A program made the translations under genes and the position numbers. The notes below the pieces were generated by a model. That model worked only from the letters and a program-made list of their open reading frames with translations. It was not told where the DNA came from and made no database searches. Positions 30,395-41,242 of a stretch of 64,000 nt of DNA are shown piece after piece; the stretch's first letter is position 1; the number at the start of each line of letters is the position of its first letter. The stretch comes from Alphaproteobacteria bacterium (GTDB lineage: Bacteria; Pseudomonadota; Alphaproteobacteria; Rhizobiales; Beijerinckiaceae). Where the stretch lies: positions 1 to 64,000 of the forward strand of contig VGDT01000009.1 in assembly GCA_016869595.1 (NCBI GenBank), written 5' to 3'.

Positions 30395-31126
30395 GTGGCG
30401 CGCGCCGTAGGCCGCAGAAGGAACGCCGATCTAAGCGCCGTCGCGCCGATTCTTGTCGTCGTCGGCATGAAGCGCGAGGCCGCCTGCGCCGCCAATGAAG
30501 GCGTCACGACGCTGTGCAGCGGCGCCAATGTCGCGCGCCTTCGACAACAACTGGACGAACTGAGCGGAACGGACTTCTCCGCCGTCGTCAGCTTCGGACT
30601 CGCTGGCGGGCTCGATTATGCGCTGCGGCCGGGCCATGTCGTTGTGGCTGACGCCATCGTCGCGGGAGACGCGCGACGCGACACGCATTCCCGTCTCTCT
30701 TCAGCGCTGATGAAAGGCGCCGCCGCCGCGGGTTGCAAAGTCACGCCCGGCGCCATCATTGGCGTCGACGAACCGGCGATGCACCCGGCCGCCAAGGCGG
30801 CGTTGCGCGAAGGCGCGCAAGCGGTCGCGGTCGACATGGAATCGCATCTTGCCGAAGACTTCGCGCGGCGGCGCAACCTGCCGTTCGTCGCGCTGCGCGC
30901 GATCAGCGATCCAGCGGCGCGCGCGTTGCCGCCGCTTGTCGCCAAGGCGCTGACGCCCGAAGGCGACATTCATACGCTGGGCGTCGCGCGCGAACTTTTA
31001 CGCGGACCGCATCAACTTGGGGGACTGATCCGCGCCGGCCTCGACTCCCGCGCCGCTTTCGTCTCGCTAAGCCGCTGTGGACCGTTGCTCGGCCCGTTGC
31101 TGCGCCTCATGCTCGCGGATTTCTGA
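30395..31126 (+). CDS. hpnG: Hopanoid-associated nucleoside phosphorylase HpnG
   Basis: A 243-residue purine nucleoside phosphorylase-like enzyme. It removes adenine from adenosylhopane to give ribosylhopane in bacteriohopanetetrol synthesis. Features are the N-terminal LVVVGMKREAACA, the SFGLAGGLDYALRPGHVVVA loop and the VDMESHLAEDFA motif (MES is the ribose-contact signature of the family). It starts at GTG one nucleotide after the shc stop. Its last 60 nt are antisense to the 3' end of hpnH. Confidence 0.9.
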   Translation: MARAVGRRRNADLSAVAPILVVVGMKREAACAANEGVTTLCSGANVARLRQQLDELSGTDFSAVVSFGLAGGLDYALRPGHVVVADAIVAGDARRDTHSRLSSALMKGAAAAGCKVTPGAIIGVDEPAMHPAAKAALREGAQAVAVDMESHLAEDFARRRNLPFVALRAISDPAARALPPLVAKALTPEGDIHTLGVARELLRGPHQLGGLIRAGLDSRAAFVSLSRCGPLLGPLLRLMLADF

Positions 31127-32218
31127 AAGCTTCGCGACATTTTCGTCGAAGACATATTCAGCCGGGCGCTGATTTTCGAGCGAGATGTCCGGCGCCATCG
31201 GACCTTCGGTGCGCACGCCAAAGAGCGCCACGGCGGCCGCCCTCCACGGCCGGCGGATGGAATCCGCGACGGCGGTGGCCTCGAAGCCGCAATGCACCAT
31301 GCAGTCGGCGCATTTCTCGTAATTGCCGACGCCGTAGGAGTCCCAATTGGTCTCCTCCATCAGCTGCTTGAAGGTCGGCACATAGCCTTCGCCGAGCAGA
31401 TAGCAGGGACGCTGCCAGCCGAACACCGTACGAAGCGGCATGCCCCAAGGCGTGCAGCGGTAGCTGACATTGCCGGCGAGGAAATTCACGAACAGCGCCG
31501 ACTGCGTGAGATCCCAAGCCTTGCCGCCGCGGCCTCGACGCAGGATCGCGCGGAATAATTCCATCGTGCGCGTGCGGTTGAGGAAGTGAGTCTGATCCGG
31601 CGCGCGCTCATAGGCGTAGCCCGGCGAAAGCGTCATGCCGTCGACGCCGAGCGCCGTGGTCGCGTCGAGGAATCTGGCGATGCGCTCCGGATCGGCGCCG
31701 GTAAAGAAGGTGCTGTTGGTGGTGACGCGAAAGCCCTTCGACTTGGCAAGCTTGATCGCCTCGACGGCGCGGTCGTAGACGCCCTCCTGACAGACCGCGT
31801 GATCGTGCGTCTCCCTATCGCCATCGAGATGGATGGACCAGGTGAAATAGGGGCTCGGCTTGAAGAGGTCGATCTTCTTGGCGAGCAGCAAAGCGTTGGT
31901 GCAGACGATGGCGAATTTGCGCCGCGCGATGATCCCTTCGACGATCTGCGGGAGGTCCTTGTGCAGGAGCGGCTCACCGCCGGCGACCACCACGACCGGC
32001 GCGCCGCACTCGTCCACCGAGCGCAGCGCGTCCTCGACCGATAACCGTTTATTGAGAATATGGTCGGGATAATCGATCTTGCCGCAGCCAGCGCAGGCCA
32101 GATTGCAACGGAACAGCGGCTCCATCATGAGCACGAGCGGATAGCGCGGCACGCCCATGAGGTGCTGCTTAAGCAGATAGACGCCGATTTTCGCAATGTA
32201 GCGGAACGGAATGGCCAC
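31067..32218 (-). CDS. hpnH: Adenosyl-hopene transferase HpnH (radical SAM)
   Basis: A 383-residue radical SAM enzyme that adds a 5'-deoxyadenosyl group to diploptene, the first side-chain step. The Fe-S cysteines are Cys38, Cys42 and Cys45 in FRCNLACAGCGK. A C-terminal SPASM-like cysteine cluster (NYEKCADCMVHCGFEA) is present. The N-terminal IPFRYIAKIGVYLLKQHLMG is diagnostic of HpnH. It is encoded opposite to hpnG and overlaps it tail to tail by 60 nt, instead of lying downstream on the same strand as in many clusters. Its promoter should be within 32219-32509. Confidence 0.94.
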   Translation of the reverse strand: MAIPFRYIAKIGVYLLKQHLMGVPRYPLVLMMEPLFRCNLACAGCGKIDYPDHILNKRLSVEDALRSVDECGAPVVVVAGGEPLLHKDLPQIVEGIIARRKFAIVCTNALLLAKKIDLFKPSPYFTWSIHLDGDRETHDHAVCQEGVYDRAVEAIKLAKSKGFRVTTNSTFFTGADPERIARFLDATTALGVDGMTLSPGYAYERAPDQTHFLNRTRTMELFRAILRRGRGGKAWDLTQSALFVNFLAGNVSYRCTPWGMPLRTVFGWQRPCYLLGEGYVPTFKQLMEETNWDSYGVGNYEKCADCMVHCGFEATAVADSIRRPWRAAAVALFGVRTEGPMAPDISLENQRPAEYVFDENVAKLSEIREHEAQQRAEQRSTAA

Positions 32219-32509: not shown

Positions 32510-32554
32510 ATGCGCAATCGGCCGGCTCCAGCGTTGAGAGCGTCCGCGCGATGA
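32510..32554 (+). CDS. Possible 14-codon leader ORF before the membrane coiled-coil gene
   Basis: ATG at 32510 follows GGGAGCGG at a good ribosome-binding distance. It encodes MRNRPAPALRASAR and stops at TGA 32552-32554, overlapping the next start as ATGA. The larger gene itself has only a weak site, so translation could be coupled through this peptide. The rest of the 332-nt gap (32219-32550) shows no other gene and must hold two divergent promoters. Whether the peptide is made is unknown. Confidence 0.4.
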   Translation: MRNRPAPALRASAR

Positions 32555-34758
32555 CCGCTACCGCCCAGCAAGGACGCATTACTGCTCCCGCGACCTCGCC
32601 GCGAGCGTTTGGCCTTTTCGATGCGCTGATTTCGCCGCTCGTTCGCCTGTGGAGCGGCGACCTCAACCTCGGCCGAGTCGGCATGGCGGCCGCCCTGCCC
32701 GTCCTCGCCTGGGTCTTCTACACGACCTCCTCGGGCATGATCGACATCATGCAGAAGGAGCCCGGCGACGTGATCGGCGTCGCGGGCACGCTGATCGCGA
32801 CGACCGCCGTCCTCACCATGCTCGCAGCGACATCCTGGTCGCTTGGCGTCGATCTTGCGGCGCTCATTGCGCGGCGGCGGATGGCACGCGAACGCATGAT
32901 CATCAAGACGGGCGTAACGGCGTTGGTCTTCGCCTTTGTCTTTTCGATCTCAGCGTTCTTCTCGTTCACCTACTACTACAACAACATCTTCAAGCTTTCC
33001 TCGCGCAAGATCGTCGCCGAACTGCAGCCGATGGAGCTCGCGACGGAAGTCATTCTGCCAGCGACAAAGGAAATCGCCGCAGCCTATGAGTCGACATCGG
33101 CGCGCATCGCCGCGACTCCGAGTTACAAGACCTATTTCGATTCGATCAGTGGCCTCATCGACACCGCGCGCCAGGCGGGGCCAGCGTTGCGCGACGCCAT
33201 TCGAAAGAGGCAGGAGGCGCAACAGGCGGTCATCGCGCAGGCTGCAAGTCAAGCGGCCGCGGAAATGGAAAGCGCACAGGCGGCGATGCGTCAGATTGAC
33301 GATGCGCGGCGCGAGATCGACGCGCTTGATCGCAGCGTCGCCGAACTCGACGTCATCATCAAAGCTAAGCAAGAGGAAATGGCCACGGCGGCCGCAACGG
33401 TCCGGCAGGAAGAGCAGCTCGCGGACGACGCCGCCCATGGGCTCGACGGCATGGGCGCCGCCTGCGGCCCAAATTGTCGGACGCATCAGGAAAAGGCGGC
33501 GGAGGCGACGCGACGCATATCGGCGCTCAGGCAGACCCTCGCTGGGCCAACGAACGAGCGGGCCAACGCCATCAAGCGTCGTGACGCGCTCAACGCTCAA
33601 ACGATCACGCTGAAACAAAAGGCGGAGGCAGCAAACGCCGCTTCGGCGCGGCCGATGCCAAAGGGCGAAGCCGCGCTCGACCTCGACGCGAGTTTGCGAG
33701 ACCTCGCCGCGCTTCGCGACCAGTTGCGCATGGAGCCGACGTGGCGCGCGGTGCGTGAAGCGAAGCCTCTGTGCGAGCCGATCCTCGCGGCGGCGCGGCA
33801 ATCGAACGCGCTGCCGGCGAGCGTTCCGCGCGACTTCACCTGCGAACCGCAGGACGAGGCGCGCGATCTGCTCTCGGCGCGCGACGAAACGATCGCCGCG
33901 CGCGCCGCCTTCGACAAAAAATGCGGGCTCGAAACCGGCCTACGCGACGAGCTTTCGGCGATCGTCGCCAAGATCCGCGCGGCGCCGGCGTCGGATAGGG
34001 CCGCCGCAGCCAACGGTTTCAACGCGGCGAAAACCATCGTCGACGCTTGCGTCGTCTCCGGCAAGGCGGCCGGCCTCTCAGAGGACGAGGTGCGCGAGCT
34101 TTTGAAAAAGAGCGACGCCTATTTGCGCGCCCATAGTTCGGAGCGCAACAAATTCGAGCTGGCGCGAGAAGCCTTCTGGAGCTTCACCCCAGATTCGACG
34201 ATGGCGATCGGCGTCGCGATGGCGCAGGACGCCTTCCTGTTCATCATGAAATTCCTGTCCGAGATTTTCAAACGCGGCTACGAGGCGCGCGAGCGGCGTC
34301 AGTTCGCAGCGCCGATCGATCTTTCGGACGATGAAGAAGAGCCTGTCGACATCCGCGCCATGAAAGCGATCCTTCGCACCGGGCGTCCGGTCCACGGCGA
34401 CATGAGCGAAATCGATCCCGAAGCTGAAGCGATTTCATCGCTGCCGCCAAATGTGCACGAAAATGTCGTCGCCATTCTCAACCGGCTGGTGCGCGATGAA
34501 ATCGCCCATGTCGACCGCAAAGGCGCTTATCTCGTGGACAATGTCACCGTTGCGCAGATTGAGTCGCGGCTCTTCGCGGCAATGAAGCCGCGCAACGTGC
34601 GCGCGCTGCGTTACGGACCCGACGGCGTCGTCGCCAGCGGACCGCGCGCCTATTACTCGGACGCCGGCGCCGCTAATCTGCCGCGCCGGTGCTATGGCGC
34701 GCTCGAGCGCTATCTGACCGCGGAGCCGGCGCCGATGGACCGGCGTTCGCCCGGTTAG
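32551..34758 (+). CDS. Unknown membrane protein with long coiled coil, part of a GTPase module
   Basis: A 735-residue protein that I cannot assign to a family. Three membrane segments lie at about 44-62, 76-98 and 120-142. A long charged helical region (about 150-420) follows, with strong coiled-coil character (AQAAMRQIDDARREIDALDR). It contains a CGPNC pair near 305 and further cysteines around 400-435. A weakly hydrophobic stretch lies around 545-570, then an acidic loop (LSDDEEEP) and a C-terminal folded domain of about 100 residues. It ends 3 nt from the convergent GAP1-like gene, whose upstream neighbour is a GTPase. A signal-transducing or scaffold role at the inner membrane is inference. 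Confidence 0.72.
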   Translation: MTATAQQGRITAPATSPRAFGLFDALISPLVRLWSGDLNLGRVGMAAALPVLAWVFYTTSSGMIDIMQKEPGDVIGVAGTLIATTAVLTMLAATSWSLGVDLAALIARRRMARERMIIKTGVTALVFAFVFSISAFFSFTYYYNNIFKLSSRKIVAELQPMELATEVILPATKEIAAAYESTSARIAATPSYKTYFDSISGLIDTARQAGPALRDAIRKRQEAQQAVIAQAASQAAAEMESAQAAMRQIDDARREIDALDRSVAELDVIIKAKQEEMATAAATVRQEEQLADDAAHGLDGMGAACGPNCRTHQEKAAEATRRISALRQTLAGPTNERANAIKRRDALNAQTITLKQKAEAANAASARPMPKGEAALDLDASLRDLAALRDQLRMEPTWRAVREAKPLCEPILAAARQSNALPASVPRDFTCEPQDEARDLLSARDETIAARAAFDKKCGLETGLRDELSAIVAKIRAAPASDRAAAANGFNAAKTIVDACVVSGKAAGLSEDEVRELLKKSDAYLRAHSSERNKFELAREAFWSFTPDSTMAIGVAMAQDAFLFIMKFLSEIFKRGYEARERRQFAAPIDLSDDEEEPVDIRAMKAILRTGRPVHGDMSEIDPEAEAISSLPPNVHENVVAILNRLVRDEIAHVDRKGAYLVDNVTVAQIESRLFAAMKPRNVRALRYGPDGVVASGPRAYYSDAGAANLPRRCYGALERYLTAEPAPMDRRSPG

Positions 34759-34761
34759 CGG

Positions 34762-35583
34762 TCAAGCGGCGACCGAAGTCGCCCCAGTCGCCGCGCGTAG
34801 CGACGGAAGATAGCGCAGGCAAAGACCCTGGGGCGCGTGACGCAGGCCGGAGACGACGCTGATCTCGCGCCAACGCGGATAGCTCGGCGGCAAAAATTGC
34901 AGCGCCAAACCCACGGCTTGGAGAAACGCCGCTTCGCTTGCGAAATCGTCGGCCCCGAAGGTCAGCGCCGCGTCTTGGCCGGTTTCAGCGCCGCGCGCCA
35001 GAAATTCGAGAACGGGGGCCGCCCAGCGGGTCTTTTCCAGCGAGTCCTCGAGCACGAGCCAAATGTCCTGCGGGTCGAGAAAGCGGACGACGTAGCGCGC
35101 CGGATCGGCGCTGTAGCGGATACCCTCGTTCTCGGCCGCCCGGTCAGGGAGCGCTTCAAGTTCGGAGCCCGCCATGGCGAGGAGCGCCGCCGGATGTCGA
35201 CGCCAATCGGCGGCCGCTACGCTCCAAACGGCGCTCTGTTGATAGAGGCGCCCATGGCCGCCTTCGCCATCTTCAGGACGAAACCGAGCGCGAAGAAAAA
35301 CCGCCCGGCGCGAATTGGGCTCTGGCGAAACCCGCGCGAGGAAGGCGCCATGCCGGCGCGAGGCGGGATCCACGAGGTCTGGCTCGAAGCGGCGAAGCGC
35401 CATCAACTGCGTCGGCGAGAGCAAGCGATCATCGGCCGGCCGCAAATTGCGGCTGCGCAAGGTCACGCCATAACCTTCGGTCGCCGGAACGCTGAGGGTC
35501 GCGCCGGAGGCGAGCTTTCCATAATGCAGCCGTTCGAGGGAAATTTCGGCTGTCTCGTCGCCTTTCGGCGCAACGCTGAGCAT
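34762..35583 (-). CDS. Unknown protein, resembles GTPase-associated protein 1 (GAP1)-type partner
   Basis: A 273-residue soluble protein without membrane segments. It opens with ISLERLHYGKLASG followed by beta-rich sequence, then LSPTQLMALRRFEPDLV. The C-terminal half is helical and hydrophobic (AAFLQAVGLALQFLPPSYP). The 'xxYgxxxSG' opening and the position 74 nt downstream of a GTPase gene recall the GAP1 N-terminal domains described by Aravind and colleagues next to double-GTPases in bacterial conflict systems. That match is from memory and weak. Otherwise it is a hypothetical protein cotranscribed with the GTPase. Confidence 0.6.
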   Translation of the reverse strand: MLSVAPKGDETAEISLERLHYGKLASGATLSVPATEGYGVTLRSRNLRPADDRLLSPTQLMALRRFEPDLVDPASRRHGAFLARVSPEPNSRRAVFLRARFRPEDGEGGHGRLYQQSAVWSVAAADWRRHPAALLAMAGSELEALPDRAAENEGIRYSADPARYVVRFLDPQDIWLVLEDSLEKTRWAAPVLEFLARGAETGQDAALTFGADDFASEAAFLQAVGLALQFLPPSYPRWREISVVSGLRHAPQGLCLRYLPSLRAATGATSVAA

Positions 35584-35657
35584 CGCCCGTCCTTTCGCGC
35601 GGAAAGTCCACGCGCCAGCCTAGCCGCAGAGCGTTAAGCAAGAATTGACGAGCTCAT

Positions 35658-36650
35658 TCAGGCGATCTCCTCCAAGCGCGCGTCAAGCTGCGCATATGAG
35701 AAGGTGAAAGCGCTATCGAGGCCGAGGGCGGCGTAAAGAAACGGCTCGGCGGTAAGAAACGGCCGCCAGTATTCATTATAGGCGCGGGCTCCCTCAAGAC
35801 CCGCGCGCCGAAAACGCCGCTCGCCGGGCTGATGCGGATCGATGTTCGGGTTTTGGAAACGCTTGACGAAGCCATAGGCCGAGCAAACCGTGAAGCGCAC
35901 CGATACGCCGCCGCCGTTAGGCCTCTCCAGAGCGCGCAGCCGATCGAGCCATTGCACGGCGCGCAAGGATTTGCGCAAGGCGTGCAGCGCCACCGCAGGA
36001 TCGCAGGCATAGGTGAAGGCGCTCGGCCCAAGGCGCGCGAACAACCGCTCATATTGCGAGAAGACGACGACGAGTCGCTTCAGCTTTTTTTCAGGCGCTA
36101 GCGCCAGTCGATCGATCAGTCGAGCGAGATTGCCGGACCAGCCAGAATCCTCAAGCCGCACCAGCGGAAGCACGATCACGATCGCCTCCGCGTCAAGCAT
36201 CTGCTTGGCGAGCTTCGCTTTGACGTCGTTCAAAATCGCCACTTCGGCGCCGTCCGGCGGCACGGCGATCTCGCCCGCCGAGTCGATGATTTCCAGGAGC
36301 CAGGGTCCCCGCAACACGACGGCGGGCGGCGCTTCGCCATTCACGGTGAGGCGAAAGCGGTATTCATATGTGTCAAGCGTGTCGGTCGCGAGGCCGCCTT
36401 CAGCGAAGTCCCGCCGCAGCCGCTCATAATCGCCCCGCTCGACCGACAGCAAATCAGCCTTCTTCGGATCGACGCTCTCGGCGTAGAATTCCGCCTCGGT
36501 GATCGGCTGCAACGCGGGACGCAGCCGCGGCGAATAGCCGAAGGCGCTTTGCGCGACGCAATCGACGAGCGTGGCGAGCAGCGATGACTTGCCGCCCTTC
36601 TTTGGCCCGATCAGACAAATCGAAAGTCTTTCGGTCATCTGCGCCTTCAA
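35658..36650 (-). CDS. P-loop GTPase, DO-GTPase2-like, linked to a GAP1-like protein
   Basis: A 330-residue NTPase. The P loop is GPKKGGKSS (15-23) and the G3 motif is IIDSAGE (121-127), the DxAGE form seen in double-GTPase (DO-GTPase) families. A canonical NKxD is not obvious; VVVFSQYERLF (about 193-203) occupies that position, so guanine specificity is uncertain. The C-terminal part has FVKRFQNPNIDPHQPGERRF and a conserved-looking FRRAGLEGA. It starts a two-gene unit with the GAP1-like protein and is convergent with the membrane coiled-coil gene. The alternative is a stand-alone AAA-like regulator. Confidence 0.7.
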   Translation of the reverse strand: MKAQMTERLSICLIGPKKGGKSSLLATLVDCVAQSAFGYSPRLRPALQPITEAEFYAESVDPKKADLLSVERGDYERLRRDFAEGGLATDTLDTYEYRFRLTVNGEAPPAVVLRGPWLLEIIDSAGEIAVPPDGAEVAILNDVKAKLAKQMLDAEAIVIVLPLVRLEDSGWSGNLARLIDRLALAPEKKLKRLVVVFSQYERLFARLGPSAFTYACDPAVALHALRKSLRAVQWLDRLRALERPNGGGVSVRFTVCSAYGFVKRFQNPNIDPHQPGERRFRRAGLEGARAYNEYWRPFLTAEPFLYAALGLDSAFTFSYAQLDARLEEIA

Positions 36651-40145: not shown

Positions 40146-41242
40146 GCCGTCACGCAAACATCACACATCTTCACTCGCGGGGGGTCGCAAAACAATCTCG
40201 CCGCCTGTAGATGCGATGATGAAGCGACAGCGTTTGCGGCGCAGTAATCAGCAAAGGTCACTCTGGATAAACTCTGATTCGCGTCCAATTGACGTTTGAT
40301 CTGAAATTATCTTCGGATAGAAGCCGTATGGCTTCCGAAACAACGTATTGTGCGCCCATCACAATCGTTCCGACTTCACGGCGGCTGGGCTGAATTTCGG
40401 AATACCGATTCAGAACGTAATTCGGGTTTGCTTGAAGCACGCGACCAGCTCTCTCGGAATCGAAGGTTGGCCACCGCACCTTAATGAACTTGAGCAATTT
40501 TCCCGTGTCATGGCCAAATCGCTTGATGCATTTCTCGCAAACTTCATGGGCAGCGACACAGGCCTTCAAAGAAAGTTCGTTTGCAAGCAATGAACTTTGG
40601 ACCGCGCCACGATAATCATATCCTCCAGTTACGATGGCGGCGGCCGCATGAAGATGCAAACGCGCTAGACCAATGTAGCGCTTGACGAGTTCAATCTCCC
40701 TATATTGGAGCTTCAATCCGTGGCCGCAGTACTGGATATCCCACACGTCCGCGAACTGATCGAGGAATTTCTCCATTTCTTCTGGCTCGGTCTGGATAAT
40801 CCCAAGCTGTACAGGCGTTAATTTAACATACTCAAACGGATTAATGGCCACTTCTCCGAAGACTAGCGCTGGAACTGCAATGCGAGCAAAGATATCTCGA
40901 TACATGAAGACGCCTATGTGTCCTCCGATGGCGATATCTTCTTTGCGGTAGATTGAATTGAAAGCGGCCTCGATCCGTTGCAGAATCGCCGGCTCCCCAG
41001 CGTAGGGCACATGTCCAAGCCGTTGCATTGCAACACGAGGGACTTCCCAGTACCGCAGTTTAATATCCATGCCACCGAGAAGAAGTTCTTTGTCAACGTT
41101 ATTGACGACGCGCAGAATTTCTTCATCTGAGTGATCTTCGGCGTTCATCGCGAGCCTACTTACGAGTAAGGAGCGCCAATAAATTTCTTTAATTCTTAAC
41201 GCCATGGTCTGTATTGACCAAGGCCGTCACGCAAACATCACA
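40146..41242. mobile_element. 1.1-kb insertion bounded by 20-bp direct repeats
   Basis: An exact 20-bp direct repeat (starting GCCGTCACGCAAACATC) occurs at 40146-40165 and 41223-41242, 1077 bp apart. Between them lies one gene with clearly lower GC and different codon use from its neighbours. No transposase is encoded. The right repeat is the first unit of a 22-bp-period series (see 41224-41300). This could be a non-autonomous cassette, an insertion with long target duplication, or the product of recombination between repeats. Confidence 0.6.
40258..41205 (-). CDS. Unknown protein encoded in the direct-repeat-bounded insertion
   Basis: A 315-residue soluble protein of unknown family. An N-terminal part contains LRYWEVPRVAMQRLGHVPYAG and IAIGGHIGVFMYRDIF. 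The middle has an LGIIQTEPEEMEKFLDQFADVWD segment in two parts. A helical segment at about 195-245 (SLLANELSLKACVAAHEVC, then FGHDTGKLLKF) resembles a HEPN domain, where such helices carry RNase or scaffold roles, but the RxxxxH catalytic motif is not seen. AT-richer codons (AAT, TTA, ATA) mark it as acquired DNA. The start could also lie a few codons inside (MNAEDH, about residue 20). Function is not assigned. Confidence 0.7.
   Translation of the reverse strand: MALRIKEIYWRSLLVSRLAMNAEDHSDEEILRVVNNVDKELLLGGMDIKLRYWEVPRVAMQRLGHVPYAGEPAILQRIEAAFNSIYRKEDIAIGGHIGVFMYRDIFARIAVPALVFGEVAINPFEYVKLTPVQLGIIQTEPEEMEKFLDQFADVWDIQYCGHGLKLQYREIELVKRYIGLARLHLHAAAAIVTGGYDYRGAVQSSLLANELSLKACVAAHEVCEKCIKRFGHDTGKLLKFIKVRWPTFDSERAGRVLQANPNYVLNRYSEIQPSRREVGTIVMGAQYVVSEAIRLLSEDNFRSNVNWTRIRVYPE

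Follow-up and report, generated by a model that had tools for sequence, protein, structure and literature searches.

What do three neighbouring genes do together in a methane-eating bacterium, and do they belong to a known family of GTPase systems? The genes lie in a stretch of 64,000 nt (hereafter, the window), which is positions 1–64,000 of the forward strand of contig VGDT01000009.1 (assembly GCA_016869595.1), from an Alphaproteobacteria bacterium of the family Beijerinckiaceae with a genome of 3.28 Mb. They encode a GTPase, a second protein that is the best available candidate for a GTPase-activating protein (GAP) and is called GAP-like below, and a membrane protein with a long coiled coil. 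An earlier reading, made from the DNA letters only (the sequence-only reading), had proposed that the three act as a membrane-linked GTPase switch and form a variant of the DO-GTPase/GAP1 systems of bacterial conflict. We infer such a switch as well, with better backing from co-occurrence, adjacency and distant gene clusters, whereas membership in the DO-GTPase2 and GAP1 families was not supported.

A conserved gene set and its larger clusters

The three open reading frames (ORFs) of 735 amino acids (aa; plus strand), 273 aa and 330 aa (both minus strand) were found where the sequence-only reading had placed them. The GTPase and GAP-like genes are 74 nt apart, and 3 nt separate the stop codons of the GAP-like and membrane genes; as the membrane gene is convergent to this pair, it lies outside their operon. 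The GTPase ORF held up, but its TTG start is probably 12 nt too early, as the alignment of many relatives begins with the ATG at 36638. Ratios of nonsynonymous to synonymous substitution (dN/dS) against two Methylocystis loci were 0.05–0.06 for the GTPase, 0.15 for the GAP-like gene and 0.11 for the membrane gene. All three are under purifying selection, and because these values are comparable to those of hpnH (0.06–0.08) and an M24 peptidase gene (0.15) in the same comparison, they are conserved genes and not chance ORFs.

Sequence searches detected the GTPase in 8 of 149 genomes of the family and the membrane protein in 15 of 199, in each case in two of 43 genera; the membrane protein matches are the Methylocystis and Methylosinus loci. 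Partners were sought in the genomes of 12 handles whose GTPase locus was without one (G320 and G726 are one genome, leaving 11 distinct). The membrane protein was present in all 12 handles (11 distinct genomes) and the GAP-like gene in five. A fourth protein of ~680 aa, first met upstream of the GTPase in Methylosinus and called UP here, was present in 15 of 15 genomes; the host copy lies away from the trio (C91:2145–4151). Three of the 15 UP matches carry one in-frame stop.

Most Methylocystis loci have the order GTPase–GAP–membrane. The GTPase and GAP-like genes are separated in G281, G722 and G723; the GAP-like and membrane genes remain paired with the GTPase elsewhere in G723 and G281, UP, GTPase and membrane gene stand together at L034 and L035, and UP is paired with the GTPase in G338 and G729. 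Persistence of pairs in different combinations is a better indication of joint function than shared synteny, and together with co-occurrence it bears out the earlier claim that the three genes belong together.

The GAP-like gene has been lost at least twice. In a GTPase tree of 34 rows (32 different), the marked branches force two separate changes, one in the Methylosinus group and one in a UBA5192-type group. The glutamate of the GTPase motif DxAGE was found in 27 of 27 GAP-bearing rows and was absent in seven of seven GAP-less rows, where it is replaced by D (three rows), A (three) or G (one). GAP presence for L008, L029 and L030 was taken from genome searches, and GAP absence for L032 was read at the locus only. 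Two distant GAP-bearing genomes, G948 and G590, likewise have the glutamate. Loss of the GAP-like gene is coupled with loss of this residue; two events are few, and both agree. The coupling singles out one residue of the GTPase.

Larger clusters were found in distant genomes. In G728, the metagenome-assembled genome palsa_894, a single contig carries UP on the opposite strand, followed by GTPase, GAP-like, HSP70-like, X410, X621, penicillin-binding protein (PBP), SEDS and membrane protein genes. The family of G728 is not that of the window, since no Methylocystis-type match was found among its 149 genomes. Its GAP-like protein has 613 aa, and its HSP70-like protein has 1213 aa with DFGTSS and DIGAGTYD motifs; X410 and X621 are smaller. 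The same gene order recurs in G948, which belongs to the G728 family; seven of its proteins show 24–36% identity, and UP is supported by hhalign (E 2e-6, 594 columns). G590, of another family, holds the PBP, SEDS, HSP70-like, X410, X621, membrane, GTPase and GAP-like genes in one cluster in a different order; its ORF in the UP position had no hhalign support as UP. The GAP-like gene directly follows the GTPase in all three clusters. Co-occurrence of the trio thus extends beyond close relatives.

The PBP transpeptidase domain (PF00905) was matched over its Pfam cut-off (E 6.5e-11 and 5.7e-13). All NCBIfam scores were under curated cut-offs: PBP to PBP2 at 1.3e-16, the multi-helix SEDS protein to RodA at 6.7e-7 and FtsW at 7.8e-5, and the ~1200-aa protein weakly to HSP70/actin-like families (best 0.018). 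The PBP and SEDS proteins thus score to the models of the RodA–PBP2 elongation synthase but differ from it in being much larger (~940–1110 aa), in falling under the model cut-offs, in their extra GTPase switch and in their absence from the window. A profile of the G728-type SEDS protein matched 5 of 385 genomes of the class, of which the fifth, G611, is weak. In G347, G523 and G664 we found only the PBP–SEDS pair (L141–L145), and neither the GTPase nor the GAP-like gene was detected in the stretches of 12, 40 and 40 kb; the pair alone may represent a simpler and older form, or else a system of its own. E-values for the G590, G347, G523 and G664 clusters derive from iterated profiles applied to few ORFs and are inflated.

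Two observations concern the surroundings of these clusters. The G728 contig also encodes, at a distance of ~6 kb from UP, a protein with both caspase (8.2e-25) and FGE-sulfatase (1.2e-53) domains (L074:10096–11904), a combination also named among effectors of conflict systems. ParB-like and terminase-like ORFs, recognised by eye, lie 2–5 kb downstream of the G590 cluster (L140:9306–12436), and that copy may adjoin a prophage.

The class-wide GTPase search returned one of 385 genomes, the host's own, and missed the G590 GTPase (24% identity) although G590 lay in the range of genomes covered; the GTPase family is therefore under-counted by sequence searches. The GTPase and HSP70-like proteins of G728 had no match among plasmids. 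In the PDB, sequence searches from the profiles of the GTPase, GAP-like protein, UP and membrane protein, and from the SEDS pair, reached E 0.04 at best.

Motifs and predicted folds of the three proteins

The first gene is a P-loop GTPase by its motifs and predicted fold. Both GPKKGGKSS and IIDSAGE, named in the sequence-only reading, were found, and the poor NKxD motif it had reported was confirmed: the G4 position holds [FL][ST]xYER (SQYER in the window), followed by a G5-like SAYG. The predicted model (pLDDT 67.9) has a TRAFAC-type fold, with 45 structure matches at E≤0.001 and GTPases in all of the top 50 rows. The nearest named comparison, YcjX, is 15% identical and has other partners, and the scores of almost every other GTPase fold are only slightly lower. 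No GTPase profile was matched over its cut-off. DO-GTPase2 (PF19993) reached E≤1 in 3 of 15 family members (best 0.11, missing the curated cut-off), with no match for the window GTPase itself or the family consensus, and AAA_16 was matched by 7 of 15 (best E 9.4e-5). The P-loop is therefore recognised by these profiles and the family is not.

The second protein had been called GAP1-like, with PF20013, PF20014 and PF20052 named as the GAP1 domains to compare; our searches did not uphold membership. GAP1-N2 (PF20013) reached E≤1 in 4 of 14 members, with a best E of 0.037 and 14.5 bits (cut-off 24), and the family consensus did not match. A PF20013 search detected none of 200 Pseudomonadota genomes, the host included, in a run in which the control genome was detected. 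GAP1 proteins have three domains (N, M and C); GAP1-M and GAP1-C were not matched in the 273-aa protein or in homologues of 613 and 623 aa. It is suggestive that two neighbours weakly touch exactly two partner families, GAP1-N2 and DO-GTPase2, but the matches fall short of membership in either.

For the GAP-like model (pLDDT 87.8), TagF was the only PDB structure match at E≤0.001 among 629 (8% identity), and TagF and longin proteins occupied the first six VIA ranks. Among known longin-type proteins, the nearest comparison is with regulators of Rag GTPases (a GATOR1 subunit, FLCN–FNIP2 and Lst4), from which the window protein differs in being bacterial and in a similarity that is modest and at the level of fold. 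Arginines 76, 98, 100, 102, 112 and 156 were invariant across six divergent GAP-like proteins and are candidates for a catalytic finger. One weak GAP match from the order search (L003, E 4e-4) lies on the strand opposite a gatB-like ORF and appears to be spurious. Three Methylocystis-type loci have extra genes between the otherwise adjacent GTPase and GAP-like genes (L017:1223–2940, L023:9042–10151 and L019, 4902–6826), whose first residues resemble, by eye, a DNA-modification or winged-helix protein.

For the membrane protein, a hydropathy scan marked three membrane segments (residues 72–106, 115–143 and 551–569); residues 46–66 may form a further membrane stretch, below threshold. Hydropathy and the positive-inside rule would place residues 144–550 outside and the tail of ~166 residues inside. 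Six cysteines in the putative outer part were invariant in 14 Methylocystaceae-type rows and in G728. Among five divergent rows, Cys 305, 408, 458 and 500 were kept in all and Cys 309 and 431 in four, a pattern that suits a periplasmic, disulfide-bonded domain. DUF4407 (PF14362) was rejected as a family assignment: the likeness lies in a coiled-coil score of 21.5 bits (24 bits in another scan; cut-off 31.3) and a helix/coiled-coil layout similar by eye, and hhalign against one over-cut-off DUF4407 protein gave a probability of 0.1%. In a small genome (G725/G902) the membrane gene contains a single in-frame TAA, and another, short fragment lies at a different place (L040, L052, L106, L112).

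A putative cell-envelope switch and its alternatives

In the best-supported account, which we hold to be as likely as not, the trio would form the heart of a cell-envelope switch from cytoplasm to periplasm: a periplasmic coiled-coil protein would connect a GTPase and its longin-type GAP with peptidoglycan synthesis. The TRAFAC-type GTPase would be controlled by its longin/TagF-like partner, which most likely acts on GTP hydrolysis (as a GAP or in a GAP-like way) with the help of the DxAGE glutamate and perhaps of the partner's own conserved arginines. The membrane protein would read the nucleotide state, possibly by binding the GTPase with its cytoplasmic parts, and the Cys-rich periplasmic coiled coil would relay the signal onward. 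In the nine-gene version the receiver may be a dedicated peptidoglycan synthase, made of a RodA/FtsW-like SEDS protein and a PBP2-like transpeptidase, with the HSP70/actin-like protein and further partners. Methylocystis and Methylosinus retain GTPase, membrane protein and UP genes, and most of them the GAP-like gene as well, scattered or paired. No SEDS counterpart was found in the host genome by profile at E≤1e-5 (two of seven candidates scored), and the switch must therefore have another target there, which may be the ordinary RodA/PBP2 or some other process of the envelope.

A bolder form of the proposal we put forward only tentatively, and doubt more than we credit: that a dedicated bacterial counterpart of the Rag/longin-GAP pair switches a private SEDS–PBP synthase through a transmembrane Cys-rich coiled coil, and that type II methanotrophs rewired the switch to a new envelope target. 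If the switch is as proposed, bacterial wall synthesis would be controlled by a GTPase/longin-GAP device of the type familiar mainly from nutrient sensing and membrane traffic in eukaryotes. Bacterial GTPase-associated proteins, proposed for conflict systems without any structure, would gain a predicted fold and a function open to testing, and a conserved gene set of Methylocystis and Methylosinus would be added to what is testable in these industrially and climatically important methanotrophs. Searches of the open literature (TagF and longin, bacterial longin regulators, methanotroph membrane genes, and clusters of RodA, PBP, GTPase and Hsp70) found no description of this gene set among the papers listed.

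The sequence-only reading pointed to conflict systems, for which DO-GTPases with GAP1 partners have been proposed. If the trio were a diverged DO-GTPase/GAP1-N2 system, infection would be sensed, the GTPase–GAP1 pair would set a threshold, and membrane partners would be the effectors; we consider this unlikely. Several features described for such systems in PMC7159879 (Kaur et al. 2020) recur here, namely the Walker B glutamate (named there as a hallmark of DO-GTPases) in a TRAFAC fold, a GAP gene directly downstream of the GTPase, membrane partners and, in the larger clusters, an HSP70-like gene. The weak matches to both partner families, the caspase/FGE-sulfatase gene and the terminase-like genes point the same way. 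In PMC11237479 one DO-GTPase is predicted to have a role in membrane stress. Against this reading, the profile scores are sub-threshold, the consensus sequences match neither family, and the trio family is tied to SEDS and PBP genes, which are better suited to wall synthesis. We saw no GAP1-M/C or GASH match, no match to the FNIII-repeat component of GAP1-N2 systems among the proteins scanned, no second paralogous GTPase (one GTPase match in its own genome) and no zinc ribbon or N-terminal extension; paralogous pairs (often) and N-terminal zinc ribbons (60%) are frequent in DO-GTPases and not universal, according to PMC7159879. The core gene set is constant where a conflict system would vary, and the Methylocystis locus is fixed in housekeeping surroundings. 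No link with defence was found: PADLOC gave weak matches only, with a best value of 0.026 for the trio, all in the coiled coil, and of 0.0032 for 10 proteins of the larger clusters, and the trio's neighbours in the window are housekeeping genes. All of the positive evidence for a possible immune role lies in the resemblance to DO-GTPases. The sequence-only reading had said that it would fall if profile matches and co-occurrence beyond close relatives were both lacking; the former were sub-threshold and the latter was found.

Methylocystis and Methylosinus make stacked intracytoplasmic membranes, and the module could serve a membrane task of type II methanotrophs, such as building or placing these stacks, in place of peptidoglycan synthesis. 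The restriction of the module to two genera within the family and its usual locus beside hopanoid genes are consistent with this reading. We found no direct evidence for it and nothing in the literature search, and other families have the cluster together with wall enzymes; we rate it improbable.

More improbable is a descent of the GTPase and GAP-like protein from accessory machinery of type VI secretion (a TssM-like NTPase domain and a TagF-like protein) reused as a regulator. In structure the GAP-like protein matches TagF best, but at 8% identity; no TagF profile matched the GAP-like proteins scanned, no type VI family appeared among the scanned neighbours, and the genes alongside are the GTPase and, in the clusters, SEDS and PBP. 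The least probable explanation, already disfavoured, is that unrelated neighbours are held together by slow genome rearrangement, as the synteny of most Methylocystis loci might suggest: pairs persist after synteny has broken down, some genomes add a fourth gene, distant genomes hold one cluster, and GAP loss tracks a GTPase residue.

Feature coordinates and surroundings of the trio

Table 1. Positions of genes, motifs and predicted segments of the trio in the window
Feature	Position	Strand	Remark
GTPase gene	35658..36638	-	likely true ATG start 36638, 326 aa; earlier ORF 35658–36650 from TTG, 330 aa
Walker A GPKKGGKS	36585..36608	-	GTPase
Walker B-type DSAGE	36270..36284	-	Glu kept in GAP-bearing rows, changed in GAP-less rows
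SQYER replacing G4 NKxD	36045..36059	-	GTPase
SAYG, G5-like motif	35871..35882	-	GTPase
GAP-like gene	34762..35583	-	273 aa; predicted TagF/longin-like fold
RxRxRPEDGExGxGR stretch	35248..35292	-	Arg 98, 100, 102, 112 kept in six divergent rows; candidate GTPase-contacting arginines
Membrane coiled-coil gene	32551..34758	+	735 aa; constant partner
Hydrophobic stretch, residues 72–106	32764..32868	+	hydropathy
Hydrophobic stretch, residues 115–143	32893..32979	+	hydropathy
Residues 144–550 with coiled coil, predicted periplasmic	32980..34200	+	holds Cys 305, 309, 408, 431, 458, 500
Hydrophobic stretch, residues 551–569	34201..34257	+	hydropathy
C-terminal tail, ~166 residues, predicted cytoplasmic	34258..34755	+	positive-inside rule

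The loci nearest to that of the window are from Methylocystis (94–97% identity). Housekeeping genes flank the trio, with hopanoid genes (squalene-hopene cyclase, hpnG and hpnH) on one side and prmA and the M24 peptidase gene on the other. A 315-aa ORF at 40258–41205 on the minus strand, in a stretch of lower G+C, gave a sub-threshold HEPN match (E 0.033). The genes hpnH (31067–32218) and hpnG (30395–31126) are convergent with an overlap of ~60 nt, an arrangement that recurs in several Methylocystis loci.

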